From Chamaelirium japonicum (Eukaryota; Streptophyta; Magnoliopsida; Liliales; Melanthiaceae), in contig OX393551.1 of NCBI GenBank assembly GCA_947650365.1, positions 60,877,173-60,941,172 on the forward strand: a stretch of 64,000 bases of DNA. The letters are read 5' to 3'. Each line of letters starts with the position of its first letter. The stretch's first letter is position 1. Below are positions 24,201 through 64,000 of this stretch, in pieces. Made by a program: the position numbers and the translations under genes. A model generated the notes under the pieces. It ran no database searches. It was not told where the DNA came from and saw only the letters and a list, made by a program, of their open reading frames with translations.

Positions 24201-25320
24201 CCATTCTAATTCCTTCGTACGATCCATTCTAATTCATTCGTACAATCCATTCTAATTCATTCATACGATCCATTCTAATTCATTCATACAATCCATTCTA
24301 ATACTTTCGCACGAATGTATTAGAATGGATTGTATGAATGAATTAGAATGGATCGTACAAATGAATTAGAATGGATCGTGCGAATGAATAAGAATGGATC
24401 GTACGAATGAATTAGAATAGATTGTGCGAATAAATTAGAATGGATCGTACGAATGAATTAGAATGAAATAGAATGGATACATTCGTGCGAATGAATTAGA
24501 GTGGATCATATGAATGAATTAGATTGGATTGTATGAATGAATTAGAATGGATTGTACGTATGAATTAGAATGGATACATTCATGGGAATGAATTTGAATG
24601 GATCGTACGAAGGAATTAGAATGGATCGTACGTATGAATTCTATTTCATTCTAATTCATTAGCACGATCCATTCTAATCCATTCTAATTCATTCGTACAA
24701 TCCATTATAATTCATACGAAGGAATTAATTCATACGATCCATTCTAATTCATTCGTACGATCTATTCTATTCACTTGTACAATCCATTCTATTTCATTCA
24801 CACGAATTTATCCATTCTAATTCATTCATACGATCCATTCTAATTCATTCGCACAATCTATTCTAATTCATTCATACGATCCATTCTAATTCATTTGCAC
24901 GATCCATTCTAATTCATTTGCACGATCCATTCTAATTCATTCATATGAATCTATCCATTCTAATTCATTCCCACGAATGTATCCATTATAATTCATTCGT
25001 ACGATCAATTCTAATTCATTCGCACGATCCAATCTAATTCATTCGCATGATCCATTCTAATTCATTCGTACGATCCATTCTATTTCATTCGTACGATCCA
25101 TTCTTACCCATTCGTACAATCCATTCTAATTCATTCGTATGAATGTATCCATTCTAATTCATTCGTACGATCCATTCTAATTCATTCGCACGATCCATTC
25201 TAATTCATTCATACGATCCATTCTAATTCAATCGTACGATCTATTCTAATTCATTCGCACGATCCATTCTAATTCATTCGCATAATCTATTCTAATTCAT
25301 TCGTAATTCATTCGCACGAT
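21226..25320 (-). repeat. Mostly reverse satellite block left of foldback 1
   Basis: The stretch is reverse apart from two short forward inserts at about 23695-23818 and 24319-24640. The first insert starts with the odd join TATCGTACGAGAATTAG (23691), found again at 30144. The second starts at TATTAGAATGG (24319), found again at 30703 and 34632. Monomers carrying CACCCTAATTCC recur through the block. It ends at the left arm of the first foldback element. Confidence 0.85.
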
Positions 25321-25497
25321 CATTCAGGTGTTTAGGTTGCAGCCTCAGACTTTGTATTTGGTTGAATACAAAGGTGCACCTTTGAATGACTTAGAATGGA
25401 TCACACAGGGTCTCCCCACGATCAACTAACATTCAAAGGTGCACCTTTGTATTCAACCAAATTCAAAGTCTGAGGCCACAACCTAAACACCTGAATG
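25321..25497. repeat. 177-bp foldback element, copy 1
   Basis: This is the only non-satellite sequence type inside the array. It has 68-bp terminal inverted arms (left 25321-25388, right 25430-25497) differing at about three positions, around a 41-bp loop. The ends read CATTCAGGTGTTTAGG and its complement. Each arm contains the 14-bp perfect palindrome AAAGGTGCACCTTT. Part of the loop (TTAGAATGGATCACAC) is satellite-like. No target-site duplication is visible; instead the flanks are reverse complements, so the palindrome runs on into the satellite: reverse on the left, forward on the right. There is no ORF. It could be a captured MITE-like element (the GGTGTTTAGGTTG end loosely recalls Tourist- or hAT-type MITEs) or a foldback formed in place. 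Confidence 0.85.
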
Positions 25498-27210
25498 ATC
25501 GTGCGAATGAATTACGAATGAATTAGAATAGATTGTGTGAATGAATTAGAATGGATCGTGCGAATGAATTAGAATGGATCGTGCGAATGCATTAGAATGG
25601 ATCGTACGAATAAATTAGAATGGATACATTCGTGCGAATGAATTAGAATGGATCGTACGAATGAGTAAGAATGGATCGAACGAATGAAATAGAATGGATC
25701 GTACGAATGAATTAGAATGGATCGTGCGAATGAATTAGATTGGACCGTGGGAATGAACTAGAATGCATCGTACGAATGAATTAGAATGGATATATTCGTG
25801 CGAATGAATTAGAATGGATACATTCGTGCGAATGAATTAGAATGGATCGTGCAAATGAATTAGAATGGATCGTGCGAATGAATTAGAATGGATCGTACGA
25901 ATGAATTAGAATAGATTGTGCGAATGAATTAGAATGGATCGTACGAATGAATTAGAATGGATACATTCGTACGAATGAATTAGAATGGATCGTATGAATG
26001 AATTAGAATGGATCGTACGGATGAATTAGAATGGATAAATTCGTGCGAATGAATTAGAATGGATCATACGAAGGAATTAGGGTGGATCGTACGAATGAAT
26101 TAGAATGGATACATTCGTGCAAAACAATTAGAATGGATTGTATGAATGAATTAGAATGGATTGTATGAGTGAATTAGAATGGATATTGCGAATGAATTAG
26201 AATGGATCATACGAATGAATTAGAATGGATCGTATGAATGAATTAGAATGGATCGTGCGAATGAATTAGAATGGATCATACGAATGAATTAGAATGGATA
26301 CATTCATGCGAATGAATTAGAATGGATCGTACGAATGAATTAGAATAGATTGTGCGAATGAATTAGAATTTATCGTACGAATGAATTAGAATGGATCGTA
26401 TGAATGAATTAGAATGGATCGTACGAATGAATTAGAATGGATACATTCGTGTGAATGAATTAGACTGGATCGTACGAATGAGTAAAAGAATGGATCGTCC
26501 GAATGAAATAGAATGGATCATACGAATGAATTAGAATGGATCGTGCTAATGAATTAGAATGGGTCGTACATATGAATTAGAATAGATTGTGCGAATGAAT
26601 TAGAATGGAACGTACGAATGAATTAGAATGGATCGTATGAATGAATTAGAATGGATCGTGTGAATGAATTAGAATGGATTGTACGAATGAATTAGAATGG
26701 ATTGTATGAATGAATTAGAATGGATCGTGCGAATGAATTAGAATGGATCATACGAAGGAATTGGGGTGGATCGTACGAATGAATTAGAATGGATACATTC
26801 GTGTGAAAGAATTAAAATGGATTGTATGAATGAATTAGAATGTATCGTATGAATGAATTTGAAAGGATCGTGCGAATGAATTAGAATGGATCGTACGAAT
26901 GAATTAGAATGGATCGTATGAATGAATTAGAATGGATCGTGCGAATGAATTAGAATGGATCCTATGAATGAATTAGAATGGATACATTCGTGCGAATGAA
27001 TTAGAATGGATCATACGAATGAGTAAGAATGGATCGTACGAATGAAATAGAATGGATCATACGAATGAATTAGAATGGATCATGCTAATGAATTATATTG
27101 GATCGTACGACGAATGAATTAGAATGGATACATTTGTGCGAATGAATTAGAATGGATCGAACGAATGAGTAAGAATGGATCATATGAATGAAATAGGATG
27201 GATCATACGA
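25498..27210 (+). repeat. Forward satellite block right of foldback 1
   Basis: The first monomers mirror the reverse block left of the foldback, including the rare TAATTCATTCG duplication next to the element. Farther out the two sides lose register by whole monomers. 28-bp variants appear regularly. The block ends near 27210, where ATACGAATGTATCC joins the forward and reverse orientations. Confidence 0.85.
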
Positions 27211-32585: not shown

Positions 32586-32762
32586 CATTCAGGTGTTTAG
32601 GTTGCGACCTCAGACTTTGTATTTGGTTGAATACAAAGATGCACCTTTGAATGAATTAGAAAGGATCACATGGGGTCTCCCCACGATCAACTAACGTTCA
32701 AAGGTGCACCTTTGTATTCAACCAAATACAAAGTCTGAGGCCACAACCTAAACACCTGAATG
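32586..32762. repeat. 177-bp foldback element, copy 2
   Basis: Same length, arms and loop as copy 1, with only scattered base differences (for example one change inside the left-arm GGTGCACC palindrome). The loop reads GAATTAGAAAGGATCACA, again a partial satellite monomer. The flanks are reverse satellite on the left and forward satellite on the right, with the same mirrored joins as copy 1. It lies 7265 bp from copy 1. Confidence 0.85.
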
Positions 32763-36513: not shown

Positions 36514-36690
36514 AATTCAGGTGTTTAGGTTGCGACCTCAGACTTTGTATTTGGTTGAATACAAAGATGCACCTTTGAATGAATTAGAATGGATCACATA
36601 GGGTCTCCCCATGATCAACTAACGTTCAAAGTTGCACCTTTGTATTCAACCAAATACAAAGTGTGAGGCCGCAACCTAAACACCTGAATG
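36514..36690. repeat. 177-bp foldback element, copy 3
   Basis: Third copy, again exactly 177 bp, starting 3928 bp after copy 2. This spacing equals that of the flanking forward inserts (3929 bp), so the element was copied together with its satellite surroundings. Its first base differs (AATTCAGG), slightly spoiling the outermost arm pairing. Its flanks are again reverse on the left and forward on the right. Confidence 0.85.
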
Positions 36691-52827: not shown

Positions 52828-53190
52828 TGTAATACCCGGTACGTTGATTTCAGGGCAGCCCGGTTTTATTTTTTATTTTATTGTTGCAAGATTGATTGAT
52901 TGTTTTCGTAATTATGATCGTCGATGGTGTGTGTTTGAACCTGAGTCGAACCGGGCAGTGGGCCCCGGGTCCGAGTCGCTAGGCGACACTGGAGGCATGG
53001 CATGATTGTTTGATCATTTAAATTAATTAATATATCAGGTTTTTAGACGAGTCTGTCGGACTCGTGACGTTTGCGCACCGGCCCGTCTCGGTGGCCCGTC
53101 TCGGTGCGATGCGAGCTCGACTGCGAGCAATGCGTGATTGCTTAAAAATAAAAATAATAAAAATAAAAATAAAAATAAAAACACAAACCC

Positions 53191-53310
53191 ATCCCAACCC
53201 AACCCTTTTAACCAACCCATTCAACCAAACCCTCTTTCAATTATTCAGCCAACCCAACCCAACCCTTTTAACCAACCCATTCAACCACACCCTCTTTCAA
53301 CTATTCAGCC
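53191..53310 (+). repeat. 60-bp tandem duplication in 5' LTR
   Basis: Two adjacent 60-bp units, marked by AACCCTTTTAACCAACCCAT at 53201 and 53261, differing at about two positions. The same pair is in the 3' LTR at about 61557-61676, so the duplication existed before insertion. It lies upstream of the putative TATA box and could be a promoter-proximal repeat, but no function is shown. Confidence 0.85.
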
Positions 53311-53613
53311 AACCCAACTCAACCCAATTACAGAGCATCTCTCTCTCTATCTCTCAATCCCCAAACCCGAGCCATCACTTTCCCTCTCAAAACCGTTCTC
53401 TCTTCTCTCTCTATCTCTCCCTCTCTATCCCAAACGCACAACCCCGATCCCCTCCCCCCAACCCGATCCGATCTCCTCCGCGAGATTTACTCCCTATCCC
53501 GCAGCCCCCATCAACCCGATTCCCTTCCGAAATCCCCACGATCCCCCCTCATCTCTATCCCGCCAACCTCATCCCTTTTCCCCCGATCCCAATCCCCGCA
53601 GCCCCCTCTCCCC

Positions 53614-53620
53614 TATAAAT
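53614..53620 (+). promoter_or_regulatory. Candidate TATA box of the LTR promoter
   Basis: TATAAAT preceded by C/T-rich sequence (CCCCTCTCCCC) and followed about 30 bp later by a plausible start region. The pyrimidine-rich context is typical of plant core promoters. The same motif is at 61980-61986 in the 3' LTR. Position and context only; no transcript evidence. Confidence 0.55.
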
Positions 53621-54493
53621 CAAAGCCCTAAACCGATCCGACCCCCCTCATCCCTCTCCGATCTCCCTCGTCATCTTCCCTATCTCTCTCGTTTTCTCTC
53701 TCCTGCGGTGGGGCTCTACTTGCACGGCGCCGGAGAGCAACTGGCCGGAGGAGTCGCTGCCGGAGTCAACAACTCCCCTTGCATCAGGTCAGCCTCCCCT
53801 CCATCCCCTGTTCTTCCTTTTTTCTTTCTTTCTTTTTTCTGCTCTGTTGAGAGCCCGTTGAATCCCTGTTTTTTTTTTTTTTTTTTTTTTTTTCTGTGCT
53901 GATCCGACCAACACCCCGCCCCTATTACCTTCGGTTATGCATGGCCATGGCCACCGGCCAGATGGCAGTTGGCTGTGCAGCCAACGAGCCCAACCCATTT
54001 CAGAATGCCTTTTCCACACACCTTGGCAGGTGGCTGTGTAGTCGACGAAGTCGTCCCAACCACCTGTGGTCTATCACCTCCCAGTGCCCAGACTTCCTTG
54101 TTTGCCATAGCCGTAGCCACGGGTTTGTTGGTCAACGGCTGTGAAGGCGACGGAGCCGCATCAACCCAACCAATTTTTATTTTTTTTATTATTATTTTCT
54201 CGTTCTTGTCTCCAATGCCGTCAATGTTTACCGAAACCCGTGGGAACCCTTGATCAGGGTTGTTTGATAATGCGATTCATCGGCCCTTAGTGGCTGATGG
54301 TTTACCGCCTGTTGGCACCTTATTCGGTTTTGGCATATGAACCATCGTGCCATGCACATCGGTGGCCGCCAAGTGACTCATAGGCCAAAACTTGCCAATT
54401 CCCAGATTCGACCCATCGAGACTAGTTGTTTACCCCGATCCGAGTTTAGACTCGGTAAGGCCCACAAGTCCGTTCGTAAAATATTTTTTCTAA

Positions 54494-54508
54494 ACCCTAA
54501 ACCCTAGC
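54494..54508 (+). repeat. Two plant telomere-type units inside the LTR
   Basis: CTAAACCCTAAACCCTA includes two CCCTAAA units, the plant telomere heptamer. With only two copies, and present in both LTRs, it belongs to the element (a telo-box-like motif) and is not a telomere or an interstitial telomere tract. Confidence 0.6.
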
Positions 54509-55145
54509 CCGAGGACGTCTCGGACGAAAGACGAACCGAGCCCCGACTTGGCTTTCTCACCCTTTTAGAAACCCACCGACTTAGGTTTTAATGTATGCTC
54601 GTGTGTTTGAATTACTAGTTTGTACCAGGACGATCCAGCCGAGGACGGAGCAGAGGCCAGAGACGGGAGTCCGTGCACGTCGACCAGGTGACACAGCACG
54701 CTTTCTTTAATAATTAATAACGTGAATATAGAAATGAAGGGTAGGTGTCCATAACGCTGCATGCGGGTCCCGTCGGACGTCGTCGCATGTGGTCGAGTGG
54801 ACCCCGCCTTGCATGCGGAGTCGCGAGTCCGGCGACGCATGCATAAAAAGTTAATAATTTAATAACAAATATTATACTGTTTGCATGGACACCATAGCTA
54901 GATTTTCCCTTAATTTGAATAAATAAATAATTAAAGAATTTCCGGGACCCACCCTCCTGAGGGAAGCGTGATAACCCCGGTAAATGGATTTTGGGTGAGA
55001 GTGCTTATTTTATTTGATTATGATGCTGGGTTGTGAGTGGGTGCGAATCCCGGGGTAATCCATTGAAAATGATTTAAACACTGTTTAGTTCTTTCAATGC
55101 AATGTGTTTTGTTAACCTACCTGGTTAGAGGGTAGGGACCCCGTG

Positions 55146-55174
55146 CGCGCAAGGGTCGTGAACCACCTTGCGCG
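55146..55174 (+). other. GC-rich hairpin in the LTR
   Basis: A perfect 9-bp stem (CGCGCAAGG with CCTTGCGCG) around an 11-base loop. It is repeated in the 3' LTR near 63508. It lies about 1.5 kb downstream of the TATA candidate, so it would be in the transcribed leader if that TATA box is used. Function unknown. Confidence 0.55.
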
Positions 55175-56362
55175 TACAGCCGAAGTTAAGTAGGTTAGGG
55201 GTCACGGGCAAGGGTTGTGGTAAAGCCAATAGGAGGTGCCCTCGAGTAGGGATTGGCCTAGCAACCCTGTCCCGGGGAGTTGAAGTCCCCATAGTTAAGC
55301 AAGTTGGGCGGTAGAGCTCCACCGTGAAAGACGGGAAACCCCTTATGATCATCTGGGTGAATTGTGCATGGTGTTGGTGGATGCACGGCGAGAGAGTTGG
55401 CCCTCTACATCGAAATAAAAGGCCCGATAGTAATGCCCGACCGGGGGCAGGTTGAACAAAATATCCGGGGTTCATGTTTGAATGTATAATTGTTTGATTA
55501 TTAAATTTTGGATTATATGACTGTATACACGATGACCTAGTGACAGTAGGATTTGCATGTGAATGTAGAAATTTCATGGACACATAGGACGTGATTGAGA
55601 ACATAGCCTGACAATTAGGTAAATCAATAATTTATCTTAAAATTTGAGCGTTGTTAGTTATTAAGATTGTTAGCTTGTCACTAGCCATTTATTTGGCTAA
55701 TCTCCCAAATGTATTTTTGGGGGCTACTCATTCCCACGAGTAGACTCTTCTGCAGGAGCTGAGGCACAGGAGCAGCAGTAGGAGTCCAGCAGTCAGTAGA
55801 GTAGCAGCTTATATTTTTTTTTCTATTTATGTCAATCTTAGTAGTGGTACCTTTTCATCGGATGTAATCGAAGTGGATTGGAATAAGTTTCTATTAGTTA
55901 GTTAGTGTGATAAGTGGTGATGTGCCAGCTGAATTTTCTTTGGGTAGGCCTCTCCTCAAGGCCCCAAGCCTAGGTTAGATCACTACAAAAATATAAGATG
56001 AATAATTGACCTAATTCGACAAGCCCAATAGATAGGACCTTCAGACAGATGCACCGAGTGCTCGGGAGCGGGTGAGATACTCGGCTCGCCGTCGGAGGCT
56101 TGAGCCGCGTGCTCCTTTAGAGGATATTCTGTCAGTATGTTGTGACCCCGTTGGGTCGCATGTACTGAAAGGATACTCCTTTTAAAGGTCGAGCCTGATC
56201 TTTTGTTTCTCCCCCTTCTTTCATTTGCTTGTGTGTGAGCGTAGAAAGAGCCCAGTGAGAATCCTAAAATTGGCATAGTTAAGTAACCATACCCAGAACC
56301 CTTTTCCTTTTTTTCACCTCACACCCCAGGAATCGGCCTTCAGATTTCTGGGGCGTGACAGC

Positions 56363-56375
56363 TGGTATCAGAGCC
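56363..56375 (+). other. Primer-binding site (initiator Met tRNA)
   Basis: TGGTATCAGAGCC, two bases after the LTR end, is complementary to the 3' end of plant initiator methionine tRNA, the usual primer for minus-strand synthesis in plant Ty3/Gypsy elements. This fixes the LTR boundary and the orientation. Confidence 0.95.
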
Positions 56376-56482
56376 TAGGGATATGTTCCTAGGGGTTAGT
56401 TTCTAAGATTAGGAGTCTAAGTCTAGAGTCTGAATAGTTGGTTAATAGATAGTTGACATTAGGACTATTTTTTCAATTTCAG
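56376..56482 (+). other. Leader between primer-binding site and gag
   Basis: About 107 bp of untranslated leader rich in A, G and T (TTAGTTTCTAAGATTAGG). Nothing else recognisable is seen. Confidence 0.6.
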
Positions 56483-57640
56483 ATGGCGGGTACTAGGAGT
56501 GGAAATGGTGCGAGCAACGGAGCAGGATCGTCCTCGGTGTCTGATAGCACGGCGAGGATGATGGAAATACTCCAGGGGATGGCCACCATGGTCCAGCAGC
56601 AGCAGGTTGCTGTTGCGCAGCAGCAGATGGCTGCTCAGCAGCAGGCCGAGCTAGCACAGGCTGCTCTTGCCCAGGCCCAGGCTCGTCAGCAGGCTGAGGG
56701 CGATCGGCAAGGGAAATTGCTGAAAGACTTCAAGGAGATAGGACCACCGAGCTTCAAGGGTGAGCCAGACCCCATTGAGGCCGATCGATGGTTCCAGCAG
56801 ACTGAGAAGATACTGAACGCATTGGGCATCACCGACGATAGGAGAGTGACCTTCGCCTCGTACCAGTTTGAGGCTGAGGCAGACTTCTGGTGGCAGACTG
56901 TCCAGCGCACCAGAGCAGTAGATCGAGGAGCGATTACGTGGCAGGAGTTCGAAGAACTCTTTCGGAAGAAGTTCTTTTCGGTTACCGTGCAGAACCAGAT
57001 GGAGATGGAGTTTCTGGCGCTCTATCAGGGATCTCGTACTGTGACACAGTATGAGGCCAAGTTCTCGGAGCTTGCGAGGTATGCTCCACACCAGGTGGCG
57101 ACCGACGGTAGGAGAGCCTTGCGCTTTGAGCATGGCTTGAATCCAGCAATCAGAGGTAGGGTTACCCCTTTCTTGGGGCAATCTTATGAGGAATTGGTCA
57201 ACCGGTCCCTGGCAGTGGAGCAGGAGTTGAAGGAGTCCCGCGCTATCATGGAGAAGCGGAGTGGCAGCAGTCGCAACGGTCCACCGGCTCAGAAGAGGTT
57301 TAGGCCTATGGAGACTCGACCCCCGCCGCGCCAGCCTCAGAACTTTCGTGGTCCCCCAGCTCTTGGACCGCCGCGGCGTGGATGTTTTCAGTGCGGTTCG
57401 TTTGAGCATCTGAAGTGGAACTGTCCACAGTTTCGTCGGCAGCCACTCCTACCAGCTCCACCCCAGAGGCCTGCTCTGCTGCCACCACCTGTGCAGCAGC
57501 AGAGGCCTCCACAGAGAGCTCAGCAGCAGCAGCGTCCTCCCCAGGCACAACAGCAGAGGTCTTTCCCCCGTCAGGGCGGAGGAGGCAACCAGGCTCAGGG
57601 AAGGACGTACATGCTAGTTGGTCAAGACCCAGAGGCTTCT
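56483..57640 (+). CDS. gag (capsid-nucleocapsid) of the chromovirus
   Basis: Gag forms the virus-like particle and binds the element RNA. The preferred start is the Met of MAGTRSGNG at 56483; an upstream in-frame Met at 56453 would add ten residues unlike Gag. In order, counted from the upstream Met: a glutamine/alanine-rich N-terminal stretch (about residues 45-85), the retrotransposon gag domain (about residues 95-255, with FKGEPDPIEADRWF and the W-rich FWWQTV), a basic proline-rich linker, and a zinc knuckle of CX2CX4HX4C form (CFQCGSFEHLKWNC, residues 311-324), then a glutamine/proline-rich tail. The length of about 400 residues is usual for chromovirus Gag. The right limit is rounded to the end of the recognisable region. 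Part of a fossil element. Confidence 0.9.
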
Positions 57641-57799
57641 GGGGGAGCGATCGAAGGTAACCCTGAACTTAGAATTTCAATTCGTAGACGTATGGTGTAG
57701 TTGTCTTTGCTATTAGTTTTGATTCGTTAGAACTTGTAGCAACCGGTAGTTAGATTAGTTTCTTACATGTTTCCGATAACGCTAGGTACCCTTCCTGTC

Positions 57800-58130
57800 T
57801 TTTCGACCCTTGCTTTCGTTCATTTCGATAGCGGGTCTACTCACTCCTATATCGTCCCTAGTTTTGTCAAGACTTTGGGACTAGAGTCGGTTCCATTGGG
57901 TCATACTCTGTCGGTGTTTTCACCGCTCGAGGTAAGTACTGATGTGGATCGGATCTGCCGGGACTGCATCATTCATATAGGAGACAGAGAGCTCTCGGCA
58001 GACCTCATTGTCCTGAACTTAGGAGGAGTGGACGTACTGCTTGGGATGGATTGGATGTCAGCCTATCACGTTACCCTTGATTGCTTTACTAAGAAGGTCA
58101 CCTTCTCACCTCCGGGGAGCGAGACATTCT
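57800..58130 (+). other. Aspartic protease domain
   Basis: Retropepsin-type active site DSGSTHSYI at 57827, followed by the conserved LLGMDW motif at about 58037. The enzyme cleaves the Gag-Pol precursor inside the particle. The spacing between the two motifs is normal for plant Ty3/Gypsy elements. Confidence 0.9.
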
Positions 58131-58299
58131 ACTTCTTGGGAGACAAGCAGAAGATCTTGTGCCCGGTACCGCTGCAGCAGATAACCCTCAGCTTACTAGC
58201 ACAGCTACCGAGTAGAGATAAAGATGGGAATCCAGTGGTGCTACCACCGATGGTTCGTGAGTTTCCGGATGTCTTCCCAGATGAGCTTCCAGGCTTGCC

Positions 58300-58970
58300 T
58301 CCACCTCGAGAGGTTGAGTTTGCTATAGATCTTGCACCGGGAGCAGTACCGATCTCGGTTGCTCCGTATAGGATGGCTCCCGCGGAGCTAAAGGAGCTGA
58401 AGACCCAGTTGGAGGAGTTACTCGATAGAGGCTTTATTCGTCCCAGCACGTCTCCTTGGGGAGCCCCAGTTCTTTTTGCTCAGAAGAAGGATGGGACGAA
58501 GAGGCTCTGTATCGACTATCGTAAGCTGAATAGCATAACGATCAAGAACAAGTACCCTTTACCTCGAATTGAGGACCTGTTTGATCAGTTGAAAGGGGCT
58601 TGCTATTTCTCGAAGATTGACTTGAGGACCGGATATCACCAGTTGGCTGTGAGAGCAGAGGATATTCCGAAGACGGCATTCCGGACGCGATATGGGCATT
58701 ATGAGTTCTTGGTCATGCCTTTCGGTCTAACGAACGCCCCTGCAGCATTTATGGATCTGATGAACCGAGTCTTCAGCATGTTCCTGGACAGGTTCGTAGT
58801 AGTGTTTGTGGACGATGTCCTCATTTACTCCAAGACGGAGGGAGATCATCGAGAGCACCTGAGTGCTGTGTTGCAGACCCTCAGAGACCACCAACTGTAT
58901 GCTAAGCTCAGTAAGTGTGAGTTTTGGATGCAGGAGGTGAAATTTCTCGGACACGTTGTCTCGCAGGAAG
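58300..58970 (+). other. Reverse transcriptase domain
   Basis: Shows the successive Ty3/Gypsy motifs: [80 protein letters not shown] and the catalytic [10 protein letters not shown] at 58802. Two of the three catalytic aspartates are in FVDD and the third in KIDLR. It copies the element RNA into DNA starting at the tRNA primer. Confidence 0.95.
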
Positions 58971-59219
58971 GCATCTCCGTGGATCCATCGAAGATAGAGG
59001 CCGTGATGGACTGGGAGCAGCCGAAGAACGTATTTGAGATCAGGAGTTTCTTGGGGCTAGCAGGCTATTATAGACGTTTTGTGGAGGGATTTTCTCGTCT
59101 AGCAGCACCTCTCACCCGTCTGACAAAGAAGGGTGTCAGGTTCGAGTGGTCGGAGGATTGTGAGAAGTCCTTCCGGGAGTTGAAGAGGCGGCTTACTTCG
59201 GCCCCAGTGCTTACAATTC

Positions 59220-59580
59220 TGGTCAGCGGCAAAGGCTATGTTGTCTTCACCGATGCCTCACTGATGGGGCTTGGAGCTGTACTGATGCAGGATGGTAGGG
59301 TAGTAGCCTATGCCTCTAGGCAATTGAAGACTCACGAGAGGAACTATCCCACCCATGACTTGGAGTTGGCTGCAGTGGTTTTCGCCCTGAAGATATGGAG
59401 GCACTACTTGTACGGTGAGGAGTTCGACATGTATTGCGACCATGAGAGTCTGCGATACATCGGGAGTCAGAAGGATCTGAATATGCGTCAGAGGAGATGG
59501 ATCGAGGTCTTGAAGGATTTCAACTATTCGTTCTTTTACCACCCTGGTAAAGCGAATGTAGTTGCAGATGCCTTGAGCCG
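59220..59580 (+). other. RNase H domain
   Basis: [13 protein letters not shown] at 59246, [25 protein letters not shown] and NVVADALSR give the expected acidic residues in order. It removes the RNA strand from the RNA-DNA hybrid. This is the ordinary RNase H joined to reverse transcriptase; no second, plant-type RNase H copy is seen. Confidence 0.92.
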
Positions 59581-59869
59581 GAAGTCCCGCAGCCAGCTTG
59601 CTAGATTGGTGACTGATCGACAGGACTTTCTGGCCACGATAGAAGGCTTTGATTTGTGGGTTCAGTGGGAGTCCTCTCATACCGTGTTGTGCACCATGCG
59701 AGTGCAGCCTAGCCTACTTCAGAAGGTGATTACAGCACAGAGGCTGGATTCTGAGTTGGAGGAGATTAGAGTACGGTGCGACAGTGGGGAGTCTGTCCCT
59801 GATTGGTCGATCGATGCTGATGGAGGTCTGAGGTTTCGGAGGAGGTTGTGCCTCCCTGCTGATGAGGAG

Positions 59870-60720
59870 GTTCGAGATGAGGTGTTGTCAGAGGCGCATC
59901 GATCCAAATTTTCGGTGCACCCTGGCGGCACCAAGATGTATCTTGATTTGAGGAGACAGTTCTGGTGGAAAGGGCATGAAGCGTGACGTGGCCGCCTTTG
60001 TGTCTAGATGTTTGACTTGTCAGCAAGTCAAGGCTGAGCACCAGAGACCGGCTGGATTGCTACAGCCGCTTCCAGTAGCTGAGTGGAAATGGGAGCACAT
60101 CACGATGGATTTTGTTTCGGGGTTGCCTCTGACCCGGAACAAACATGACTCAGTTTGGGTGATCGTGGACCGACTGACGAAGTCGGCACATTTTCTTCCG
60201 GTGCGGACGACGATGACATCTGTCGATCGAGCGAAGTTATATGTGAGGGAAATTGTCAAGCTGCACGGAGTTCCAGTTTCTATTGTCTCGGATCGAGATC
60301 CTCGGTTCATATCTCGATTTTGGGAGAGCCTGCAGACAGCTTTGGGAACGGAGCTCAGTTTTAGCACTGCGTTTCACCTGCAGACGGATGGCCAGTCAGA
60401 AAGGACGATTCAGATTTTGGAGGATATGTTGCGGGCTTGCTCAGTAGATTTTGGAGGCAGTTGGGAGGAGCACCTACCTCTGGTAGAGTTCGCTTACAAC
60501 AATAGTCACCAAGCTAGCATCGGCATGGCCCCCTATGAGGCTTTGTACGGGAGACCATGTCGGTCACCCCTTTGTTGGGCGGAGGTAGGAGAGCGGAGTC
60601 TCTTGGGGCCAGAGCTTGTCCAGGAGACTACTGAGAAGATCCAGCTGATTAGAGAGCGACTTAGAGCGGCGCAGAGTCGACAGAAGAGCTACGCGGATGT
60701 GCGTCGACGCCCGCTCGAGT
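59870..60720 (+). other. Integrase (zinc-binding and catalytic core)
   Basis: An HHCC zinc module (H in EAHRSK and VHPGG, C in CLTCQQVK) precedes the DDE core: D in TMDFVSGLP (60108), D in SDRDPRF (60291) and E in GQSERTIQ (60399), with 35 residues between the last two as in retroviral-type integrases. It inserts the DNA copy into the genome. Confidence 0.92.
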
Positions 60721-60779
60721 TTACTGTCGGAGACCATGTCTTCCTGAAGGTTTCCCCTCGGCGAGGCATCACCAGATTT

Positions 60780-61140
60780 GGGAAGAAAGGGAAGTTGGCT
60801 CCGAGGTTCATAGGTCCTTTCGAGATCTTGGAGAGAGTTGGCGAGGTGGCATATCGTCTGGCACTGCCCCCGCAGCTCTCTAACGTCCACGGTGTCTTTC
60901 ACGTGTCCATGCTTAGGAGGTATGAGCCAGACCCGTCGCACGTGTTAGATTGGCAGGACCTGACCCTCAGTTCAGAAGCGTCCTATGAGGAGCGACCGAT
61001 TAGGATCTTGGCTAGAGAAGATCGAGTGCTTCGTACGAAGACCATCCCCATGGTGAAGGTGCAGTGGCAGCACTGTAGTGAGGAGGAGGCTACGTGGGAG
61101 CTCGAGTCAGCGATGCGGTCCCAGTACTCTTCTTTGTTTG
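60780..61140 (+). other. GPF module and C-terminal chromodomain
   Basis: PRFIGPFEILERVGEVAYRL is the GPY/F module found after integrase in many Ty3/Gypsy elements. VHGVFHVSMLRRY follows, and the last 50 residues (IRILAREDRVLR through VQWQHCSEEEATWELE to the end) form the chromodomain that defines chromoviruses. It lacks some of the aromatic-cage residues of canonical HP1 chromodomains, as is known for the plant Tekay/Del group (group II). The domain is thought to steer integration to heterochromatin, which agrees with its position beside a satellite. Confidence 0.85.
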
Positions 61141-61148
61141 ATGATTAG

Positions 61149-61180
61149 TGTTAGTTAATTTTCAGGACGAAAATTTTAAT
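61149..61180 (+). other. Short 3' untranslated stretch
   Basis: TTCAGGACGAAAATTTTAAT before the polypurine tract closely follows the usual end of plant Tekay-like elements (a GGACGAAAATT motif). No further feature is seen. Confidence 0.6.
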
Positions 61181-61193
61181 AAGGTGGGTAGGA
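61181..61193 (+). other. Polypurine tract
   Basis: AAGGTGGGTAGGA immediately before the 3' LTR, purine-rich with two T interruptions. It primes plus-strand DNA synthesis in LTR retrotransposons. Its abutment on TGTAATACCC supports the 3' LTR start at 61194. Confidence 0.85.
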
Positions 61194-64000
61194 TGTAATA
61201 CCCGGTACGTTGATTTCAGGGCAGCCCGGTTTTATTTTTTATTTTATTGTTGCAAGATTGATTGATTGTTTTCGTAATTATGATCGTCGATGGTGTGTGT
61301 TTGAACCTGAGTCGAACCGGGCAGTGGGCCCCGGGTCCGGGTCGCTAGGCGACACTGGAGGCATGGCATGATTGTTTGATCATTTAAATTAATTAATATA
61401 TCAGGTTTTTAGACGAGTCTGTCGGACTCGTGACGTTTGCGCACCGGCCCGTCTCGGTGGCCCGTCTCGGTGCGATGCGAGCTCGACTGCGAGCAATGCG
61501 TGATTGCTTAAAAAAAATAATAATAAAAATAAAAATAAAAATAAAAACACAAACCCATCCCAACCCAACCCTTTTAACCAACCCATTCAACCAAACCCTC
61601 TTTCAATTATTCAGCCAACCCAACCCAACCCTTTTAACCAACCCATTCAACCACACCCTCTTTCAACTATTCAGCCAACCCAACTCAACCCAATTACAGA
61701 GCATCTCTCTCTCTATCTCTCAATCCCCAAACCCGAGCCATCACTTTCCCTCTCAAAACCGTTCTCTCTTCTCTCTCTATCTCTCCCTCTCTATCCCAAA
61801 CGCACAACCCCGATCCCCTCCCCCCAACCCGATCCGATCTCCTCCGCGAGATTTACTCCCTATCCCGCAGCCCCCATCAACCCGATTCCCTTCCGAAATC
61901 CCCACGATCCCCCCTCATCTCTATCCCGCCAACCTCATCCCTTTTCCCCCGATCCCAATCCCCGCAGCCCCCTCTCCCCTATAAATCAAAGCCCTAAACC
62001 GATCCGACCCCCCTCATCCCTCTCCGATCTCTCTCGTCATCTTCCCTATCTCTCTCGTTTTCTCTCTCCTGCGGTGGGGCTCTACTTGCACGGCGCCGGA
62101 GAGCAACTGGCCGGAGGAGTCGCTGCCGGAGTCAACAACTCCCCTTGCATCAGGTCAGCCTCCCCTCCATCCCCTGTTCTTCCTTTTTTCTTTCTTTTTT
62201 TTTCTGCTCTGTTGAGAGCCCGTTGAATCCCTGTTTTTCTTTTTTTTTTTTTTTTCTGTGCTGATCCGACCAACACCCCGCCCCTATTACCTTCGGTTAT
62301 GCATGGCCATGGCCACCGGCCAGATGGCAGTTGGCTGTGCAGCCAACGAGCCCAACCCATTTCAGAATGCCTTTTCCACACACCTTGGCAGGTGGCTGTG
62401 TAGTCGACGAAGTCGTCCCAACCACCTGTGGTCTATCACCTCCCAGTGCCCAGACTTCCTTGTTTGCCATAGCCGTAGCCACGGGTTTGTTGGTCAACGG
62501 CTGTGAAGGCGACGGAGCCGCATCAACCCAACCAATTTTTATTTTTTTTATTATTATTTTCTCGTTCTTGTCTCCAATGTCGTCAATGTTTACCGAAACC
62601 CGTGGGAACCCTTGATCAGGGTTGTTTGATAATGCGATTCATCGGCCCTTAGTGGCTGATGGTTTACCGCCTGTTGGCACCTTATTCGGTTTTGGCATAT
62701 GAACCATCGTGCCATGCACGTCGGTGGCCGCCAAGTGACTCATAGGCCAAAACTTGCCAATTCCCAGATTCGACCCATCGAGACTAGTTGTTTACCCCGA
62801 TCCGAGTTTAGACTCGGTAAGGCCCACAAGTCCGTTCGTAAAATATTTTTTCTAAACCCTAAACCCTAGCCCGAGGACGTCTCGGACGAAAGACGAACCG
62901 AGCCCCGACTTGGCTTTCTCACCCTTTAAGAAACCCACCGACTTAGGTTTTAATGTATGCTCGTGTGTTTGAATTACTAGTTTGTACCGGGACGATCCAG
63001 CCGAGGACGGAGCAGAGGCCAGAGACGGGAGTCCGTGCACGTCGACCAGGTGACACAGCACGCTTTCTTTAATAATTAATAACGTGAATATAGAAATTAA
63101 GGGTAGGTGTCCATAACGCTGCATGCGGGTCCCGTCGGACGTCGTCGCATGTGGTCGAGTGGACCCCGCCTTGCATGCGGAGTCGCGAGTCCGGCGACGC
63201 ATGCATAAAAAGTTAATAATTTAATAACAAATATTATACTGTTTGCATGGACACCATAGCTAGATTTTCCCTTAATTTGAATAAATAAATAATTAAAGAA
63301 TTTCCGGGACCCACCCTCCTGAGGGAAGCGTGATAACCCCGGTAAATGGATTTTGGGTGAGAGTGCTTATTTTATTTGATTATGATGCTGGGTTGTGAGT
63401 GGGTGCGAATCCCGGGGTAATCCATTGAAAATGATTTAAACACTGTTTAGTTCTTTCAATGCAATGTGTTTTGTTAACCTACCTGGTTAGAGGGTAGGGA
63501 CCCCGTGCGCGCAAGGGTCGTGAACCACCTTGCGCGTACAGCCGAAGTTAAGTAGGTTAGGAGTCACGGGCAAGGGTTGTGGTAAAGCCAATAGGAGGTG
63601 CCCTCGAGTAGGGATTGGCCTAGCAACCCTGTCCCGGGGAGTTGAAGTCCCCATAGTTAAGCAAGTTGGGCGGTAGAGCTCCACCGTGAAAGACGGGAAA
63701 CCCCTTATGATCATCTGGGTGAATTGTGCATGGTGTTGGTGGATGCACGGCGAGAGAGTTGGCCCTCTACATCGAAATAAAAGGCCCGATAGTAATGCCC
63801 GACCGGGGGCAGGTTGAACAAAATATCCGGGGTTCATGTTTGAATGTATAATTGTTTGATTATTAAATTTTGGATTGTATGACTGTATACACGATGACCT
63901 AGTGACAGTAGGATTTGCATGTGAATGTAGAAATTTCATGGACACATAGGACGTGATTGAGAACATAGCCTGACAATTAGGTAAATCAATAATTTATCTT
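61194..64000 (+). repeat. 3' LTR, cut off by window end
   Basis: Matches 52828-55638 with an offset of 8366 bp at its start and 8362 at the window end, so only four bases of net length change, mostly in homopolymers and the A/T simple repeat. About ten base substitutions were counted by eye over 2.8 kb. By comparison with the 5' LTR about 0.7 kb is missing beyond the window. It contains the same TATA candidate, 60-bp duplication and hairpin as the 5' copy. Confidence 0.95.
61980..61986 (+). promoter_or_regulatory. TATA box candidate in the 3' LTR
   Basis: TATAAAT in the same context as at 53614. In this copy it would drive transcription outward into flanking DNA beyond the window, as LTR promoters can. 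Confidence 0.5.

Follow-up and report, generated by a model that had tools for sequence, protein, structure and literature searches.

The 177-bp unit at positions 25321-25497 of the window (the whole analysed stretch of 64,000 nucleotides, positions 60877173-60941172 of contig C3 in a 1.52-Gb genome assembled in 3253 contigs) is probably the fossil of a fold-back inverted duplication, which arose within an array of 23-bp satellite, was amplified together with that satellite and in places lost one of its arms. The copies that were read have a common junction with the satellite and matching arms and near flanks; the unit is estimated to be present as up to about 177 two-armed "doubles" distributed over several chromosomes, and is accompanied by forms with one arm. 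The similarity of satellite units to one another makes it difficult to trace how inversions arise within satellites and whether they spread. The foreign 58-bp arm core, X, labels one type of inversion junction, and through the approximately 368 centres that appear to carry it one apparent inversion event can be traced through amplification, chromosome-to-chromosome dispersal and arm loss.

The unit contains three parts: the left arm (25321..25388), a 41-bp loop (25389..25429, + strand) and the right arm (25430..25497). The 68-bp arms pair at 65 of 68 positions, leaving three mismatches, and are included in a longer inverted pair of 196 nt at 94%. The core X occupies residues 25435-25492 of the right arm and its reversed counterpart, X', residues 25326-25383 of the left one. 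A segment close to one forward satellite unit (25384..25404, + strand; family D3, 68% over 28 nt) runs from the last bases of the left arm into the loop; it reads GAATGACTTAGAATGGATCAC in this copy and GAATGAATTAGAATGGATCAC in many others. The right part of the loop, ACACAGGGTCTCCCCACGATCAACTAA, is non-satellite, leads into X, and recurs almost entire in the one-arm forms C and D described below. The earlier note called the unit foreign to the satellite, which holds only in part: the segment 25384-25404 is near-satellite, and the ends of the hairpin, CATTC and GAATG, read as satellite.

The unit is placed on a reverse-to-forward switch of the satellite. Its flanks, 25193..25320 in reverse orientation (- strand) and 25498..25625 in forward orientation (+ strand; pair I2), mirror each other perfectly over the first 37 bases and at 120 of 128 positions overall, and the right one begins with ATCGTGCGAATGAATTACGAATGAATTAG and has an 11-bp insertion. 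No target-site duplication is visible at 25321-25497, the immediate flanks being reverse complements of each other. The coordinates, the arm and loop lengths, the reverse satellite on the left and forward satellite on the right, and the lack of a target-site duplication are thus all as the earlier note had them, while the mirrored flanks, which it put at about 30 plus about 25 bases, are longer. Folded as single-stranded DNA, the 177 nt have a predicted energy of -77.3 kcal/mol (z -19.0), and such a fold is not a matter of chance, since none of 200 shuffled sequences reached its stability. The core X by itself folds somewhat better than its own shuffles (z -3.15). No match to a known RNA family was obtained at gathering scores across the whole window.

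Bases 1-52547 of the window consist of the 23-bp satellite, with the unit GAATGAATTAGAATGGATCGTAC and 28-bp variants, and run in both directions. With single-unit segments dropped, the orientation changes 43 times, comprising 22 reverse-to-forward and 21 forward-to-reverse switches. The 177-bp unit is found at three of the former and at none of the latter. The second copy (32586..32762, + strand) is 94.9% identical to the first, and the third (36514..36690, + strand) is 93.8% identical over 36515-36690; both lie at reverse-to-forward switches. The core is absent from 40 of the 43 switches of the window. The core-less switches, in the window and in the fetched loci, fall into recurrent spacer classes, and many of their joins are near-palindromic; the most frequent classes are each shared by 9-15 loci. 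The only long spacer of a reverse-to-forward switch unrelated to X or to its surroundings, among the loci examined, is one of ~126 bp with a T-run (L011:2228-2353).

Genome-wide pattern counts were made with up to three mismatches, each pattern read backwards serving as a control that gave zero matches. The arm core has 536 matches and the left-type inner flank of X has 177. Three further forms were recognized. Form A, a single X after reverse satellite and AACTAACGTTC, has 87 matches; form C, a single X after a longer core and reverse satellite, has 99; form D has 5, every one on contig C7. In a separate count, X with the usual forward flank after it has 491 matches. The right-arm core was present beside the left-type copy in 36 of the 37 read and lost in one (L064), so that true doubles (X'-loop-X) number at most about 177. 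Together these pattern matches suggest about 368 centres in the genome, made up of up to 177 doubles, 99 + 87 one-arm forms and 5 of the fourth form. Since 2x177+87+99+5 = 545 is near 536, the doubles and forms A, C and D probably make up nearly all X within the three-mismatch limit. X centres are located on at least nine large contigs plus many small ones; C1-C5 and C7-C10 have matches, and C6 has none among the matches listed. Forms C and A keep a fixed order on one strand, with C positioned 2.6-8.2 kb upstream in 69 of the 87 form-A places, mostly at a distance of 4.2-5.4 kb, as if both were within one large repeated block (as in L040 and L041).

All copies that were read join the 58-bp core to the same satellite variant, for which reason a single origin of the X centres is likely. 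In the 25 copies read first, the junction between X and the satellite is at the same place on both sides in every one, with point changes. The 11-bp insertion of the adjoining satellite unit is found in all 25 left flanks and in 21 of the 25 right flanks listed, the right flanks without it being those of L010, L012, L022 and the window copy at 36514. The majority consensus of X with 75 bp outward is identical for the left arms (31 rows) and the right arms (32 rows), and the consensus of form A (15 rows) differs from it by one base and that of form C (13 rows) by four.

Within a copy, X and X' differ at 0-6 of 58 positions, and the two are different in 30 of the 31 doubles of equal length; the doubles therefore look like old duplications and not like read artefacts. 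Long-read sequencing is known to generate palindromic artefacts, and fold-back chimeric reads could in principle yield such structures at assembly or read level. An artefact is scarcely credible here, given hundreds of copies on many contigs, in which each arm bears its own mutations.

The mirror symmetry of the doubles continues outward into the satellite for a limited distance. The lengths of successive units mirror each other in many copies as judged by eye, for example 23x6,28,23x6,28,28 on one side of L009 and 23x5,28,23x6,28,28 on the other. When 370 bp of the two sides are aligned, the mirrored score averages 260 against a control mean of 207, with 95 of 1092 control stretches reaching or exceeding the mirrored score; in 18 of 32 copies no control does so. 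In sliding windows of 92 bp, a comparison that is blurred by the periodicity of the satellite, the mirrored place wins in 23, 9, 21 and 6 of 31 doubles at 0, 92, 184 and 276 bp and in 0-4 beyond, while in three single-X loci it wins in 1, then 2, then mostly 0 of the three. As the mirrored place mostly loses from 276 bp out, a mirrored flank is established no further than ~370 bp.

The fold-back duplication that we favor would have started from a non-satellite segment of ~90 bp, made up of core X and the right part of the loop, within forward-running 23-bp satellite. A former position of the core in a plain forward array is suggested by the forward unit in the left part of the loop and by the right arm running into forward satellite. 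A broken end would then have folded back, with GAA...TTC, an inverted match of 3 bases whose halves are 45 nt apart, as the priming site. Synthesis from there would have produced an inverted copy of X and of the satellite next to it, giving a palindrome X'-spacer-X with mirrored satellite on either side. The copies would subsequently have spread passively as blocks of the array were amplified, sometimes dropping one arm. The fold-back step and its place in the order of events, the passive spread and the occasional arm loss are what we infer from the sequences of the copies. In this model the unit is found at an inversion centre because it is itself the inversion junction. The earlier note offered two readings, one of which, an inverted duplication that left the hairpin as its scar, agrees with the shared junction, with the same consensus of arm and 75 bp on both sides, and with the short spacer.

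The arms do begin at the 3-base match GAA...TTC, which could be due to chance; in PMC3907307, 134 of 1000 simulated spacers had a match of two bases or more. The pre-palindrome state, the core in a plain forward array, was not found with one pattern at up to three mismatches, which gave two matches, neither with the core. The unrearranged ancestor is not a strict requirement, because it may be lost.

Fold-back inverted duplications described in human (PMC3907307) and yeast (PMC7467729) are alike in having inverted copies around a non-duplicated spacer; an inverted match of a few bases lies at its edge, to which GAA...TTC may correspond, and hairpin-primed synthesis would explain the order of the parts. 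Inverted arms around a single-copy spacer are present in the unit with its 68-bp arms, 41-bp loop and mirrored satellite. The human and yeast cases are fresh rearrangements, those in human being large with spacers of 766-70,466 bp, while the X unit has a spacer of ~45 nt and up to about 177 copies in satellite.

Forms A and C can be losses of one arm, and form D reads as a double whose X' was lost between two GATCA copies. Form A could be an independent inverted junction and not a decayed double. The basis for this is a flank motif without X, of which 57 of 84 copies are located 368-888 bp to the left of a form A on the opposite strand, and 6 of the remaining 27 at 1.7-3.3 kb to the left of a form A; it may represent an allele lacking X that was captured in an inverted fusion of its own. 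In a broader version, the double, form A and form C would be three separate inverted junctions in or at the ~90-bp core, the uninverted allele having gone, and the core would be a hairpin-prone foreign insert that repeatedly made the satellite reverse its direction. We consider this tentative and rather unlikely.

The position of the centres relative to the switches is uniform. All 61 centres for which both flanks were scored (32 doubles, 15 of form A, 13 of form C and 1 of form D) have reverse satellite on the left and forward satellite on the right, in a sample in which diverged copies are under-represented, because the centres were taken from lists ranked by score or mismatch. Five additional short reads comprise four doubles and one other copy; the four have reverse satellite to their left, and their right flank can be judged over its first bases only. 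An occurrence in unidirectional satellite, named in the earlier note as a refutation, was encountered once. This copy, L064, has X with the loop and lies between satellite of like orientation, bar one unit, because its right arm is missing and the remainder is joined to satellite at ACGATC/GTACGAATTAATTC. We read this copy, which has lost one arm, as decay and not as a free insertion.

The uniform position would also agree with the palindrome being an active engine of inversion, a possibility raised by the earlier note; its arms would then form cruciforms or recombine and thereby flip the surrounding array. The very stable predicted hairpin and the presence of a switch at every complete copy with both flanks read are in line with such an activity. 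However, 19 of the 22 reverse-to-forward switches of the window occur without the unit, two X-free stretches of 2 kb show 3 and 2 switches when single units are disregarded, and 33 loci outside the window, 256 kb in total, contain 145 X-less switches of both kinds. Nor are additional switches concentrated close to the centres. Within 500 bp of a centre they are scarce (2 counted, 0.06 per kb), and the rate is 0.41 per kb between 0.5 and 1 kb, 0.86-1.02 between 1 and 3 kb, and 0.23-0.57 between 3 and 5 kb, compared with 0.78 per kb in the window with the same filter, loci with two centres being counted twice. Loop orientation is also retained relative to the flank variants: each of 32 doubles has its best match in a copy whose loop is oriented alike, the nearest neighbor of a single flank is on the same side in 61 of 64, and the arm variant 9A, found in 9 of the 25 copies listed, is always in the left arm. 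When every ordered pair is considered, flipping gives the higher score in 322 of 992, a result that we take to be uninformative for distant pairs. An engine of inversion is thus very unlikely, and this part of the earlier note is not upheld.

The other reading of the earlier note was that a palindromic element had inserted. Miniature inverted-repeat transposable elements (MITEs) and other hairpin elements are short, palindromic and present in many copies. These features are shared by the X unit, which has terminal inverted repeats, hundreds of copies and, for a MITE or another small palindromic transposon preferring inversion centres of the satellite, a consistent position at switches in 61 of 61 fully read centres. 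It differs from MITEs in the absence of a target duplication, in having a single junction and in being confined to satellite as far as found. The copies read share one outer junction instead of showing many independent insertion sites, and the flanks of the doubles read are reverse complements and not direct repeats. Exact X without the preceding C is found genome-wide at only 2 places and without the following G at only 8; the two of these ten places that were checked, C179 and C64:816216 (L059), are point variants of the shared junction. A form with a single X exists as well. The earlier note proposed a search for a copy outside the satellite with a target duplication, and none was seen in the loci fetched, where diverged copies could be missed. 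Insertion of such an element is highly improbable.

A transposon with a target duplication was rejected on the flanks and the single junction. Where the core is inferred to have inserted, GATC, or GAATGGATC lacking one base, could be taken for a short target duplication; it is not claimed, because a match of this kind is weak evidence in a 23-bp tandem array.

A foldback transposon of the FB or Tetris type provides a different connection between a palindrome and a satellite. The satellite would then have grown out of tandem repeats in the terminal inverted repeats of the element, whose interior would survive as X and the loop. Mirrored tandem repeats do flank a short non-repeat core, and the loop contains a near-satellite unit. 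Tetris of Drosophila virilis, with its TIR-220 satellite (PMC4079207), is alike in its tandem repeats within mirrored arms and in its link of palindrome and satellite, and shows that such elements can seed satellites. Tetris has target duplications of 8-10 bp, while none was seen at the X unit. Outer ends, a target duplication or a coding version were likewise not seen in the loci fetched, in which the ends of arrays are hardly sampled. X is missing from the 19 window switches and from the 145 switches elsewhere that were counted above, and the approximately 368 centres stand against 2.23 million exact satellite units. A foldback transposon is therefore an unlikely source of the unit.

Spread by passive amplification of a fold-back product has a parallel in higher-order repeats with inversions, where blocks of variant units reach many arrays by copying, inversion junctions included. 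The same copying of blocks is proposed for X, and the X block differs in that a foreign hairpin core labels one type of junction. The orientation of arrays is treated in PMC7004042. The literature searched did not contain the satellite strings, and no description of this repeat or of the X structure was found there.

The satellite that hosts the unit is also notable for its abundance. Exact copies of the 23-bp unit number 1,110,541 in forward and 1,124,000 in reverse orientation, 2.23 million in all, and sum to at least 51 Mb. If other arrays contain exact units at the density of the window and the fetched loci, a rough extrapolation gives 485-514 Mb of satellite in 1519 Mb, or approximately one third of the genome. 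At C1:1367758-1384198 each of the 100 exact units among the matches listed is in forward orientation, across 16 kb, and some arrays may therefore be unidirectional.

The array in the window adjoins a Ty3-type LTR retrotransposon (52828-64000), with matches to gag, protease, reverse transcriptase, RNase H and integrase. Together with the layout of the genome, this element points to a plant as the host. Its two LTR copies, at 52828-55638 and 61194-64000, the second of which is cut by the end of the window, are 99.4% identical.
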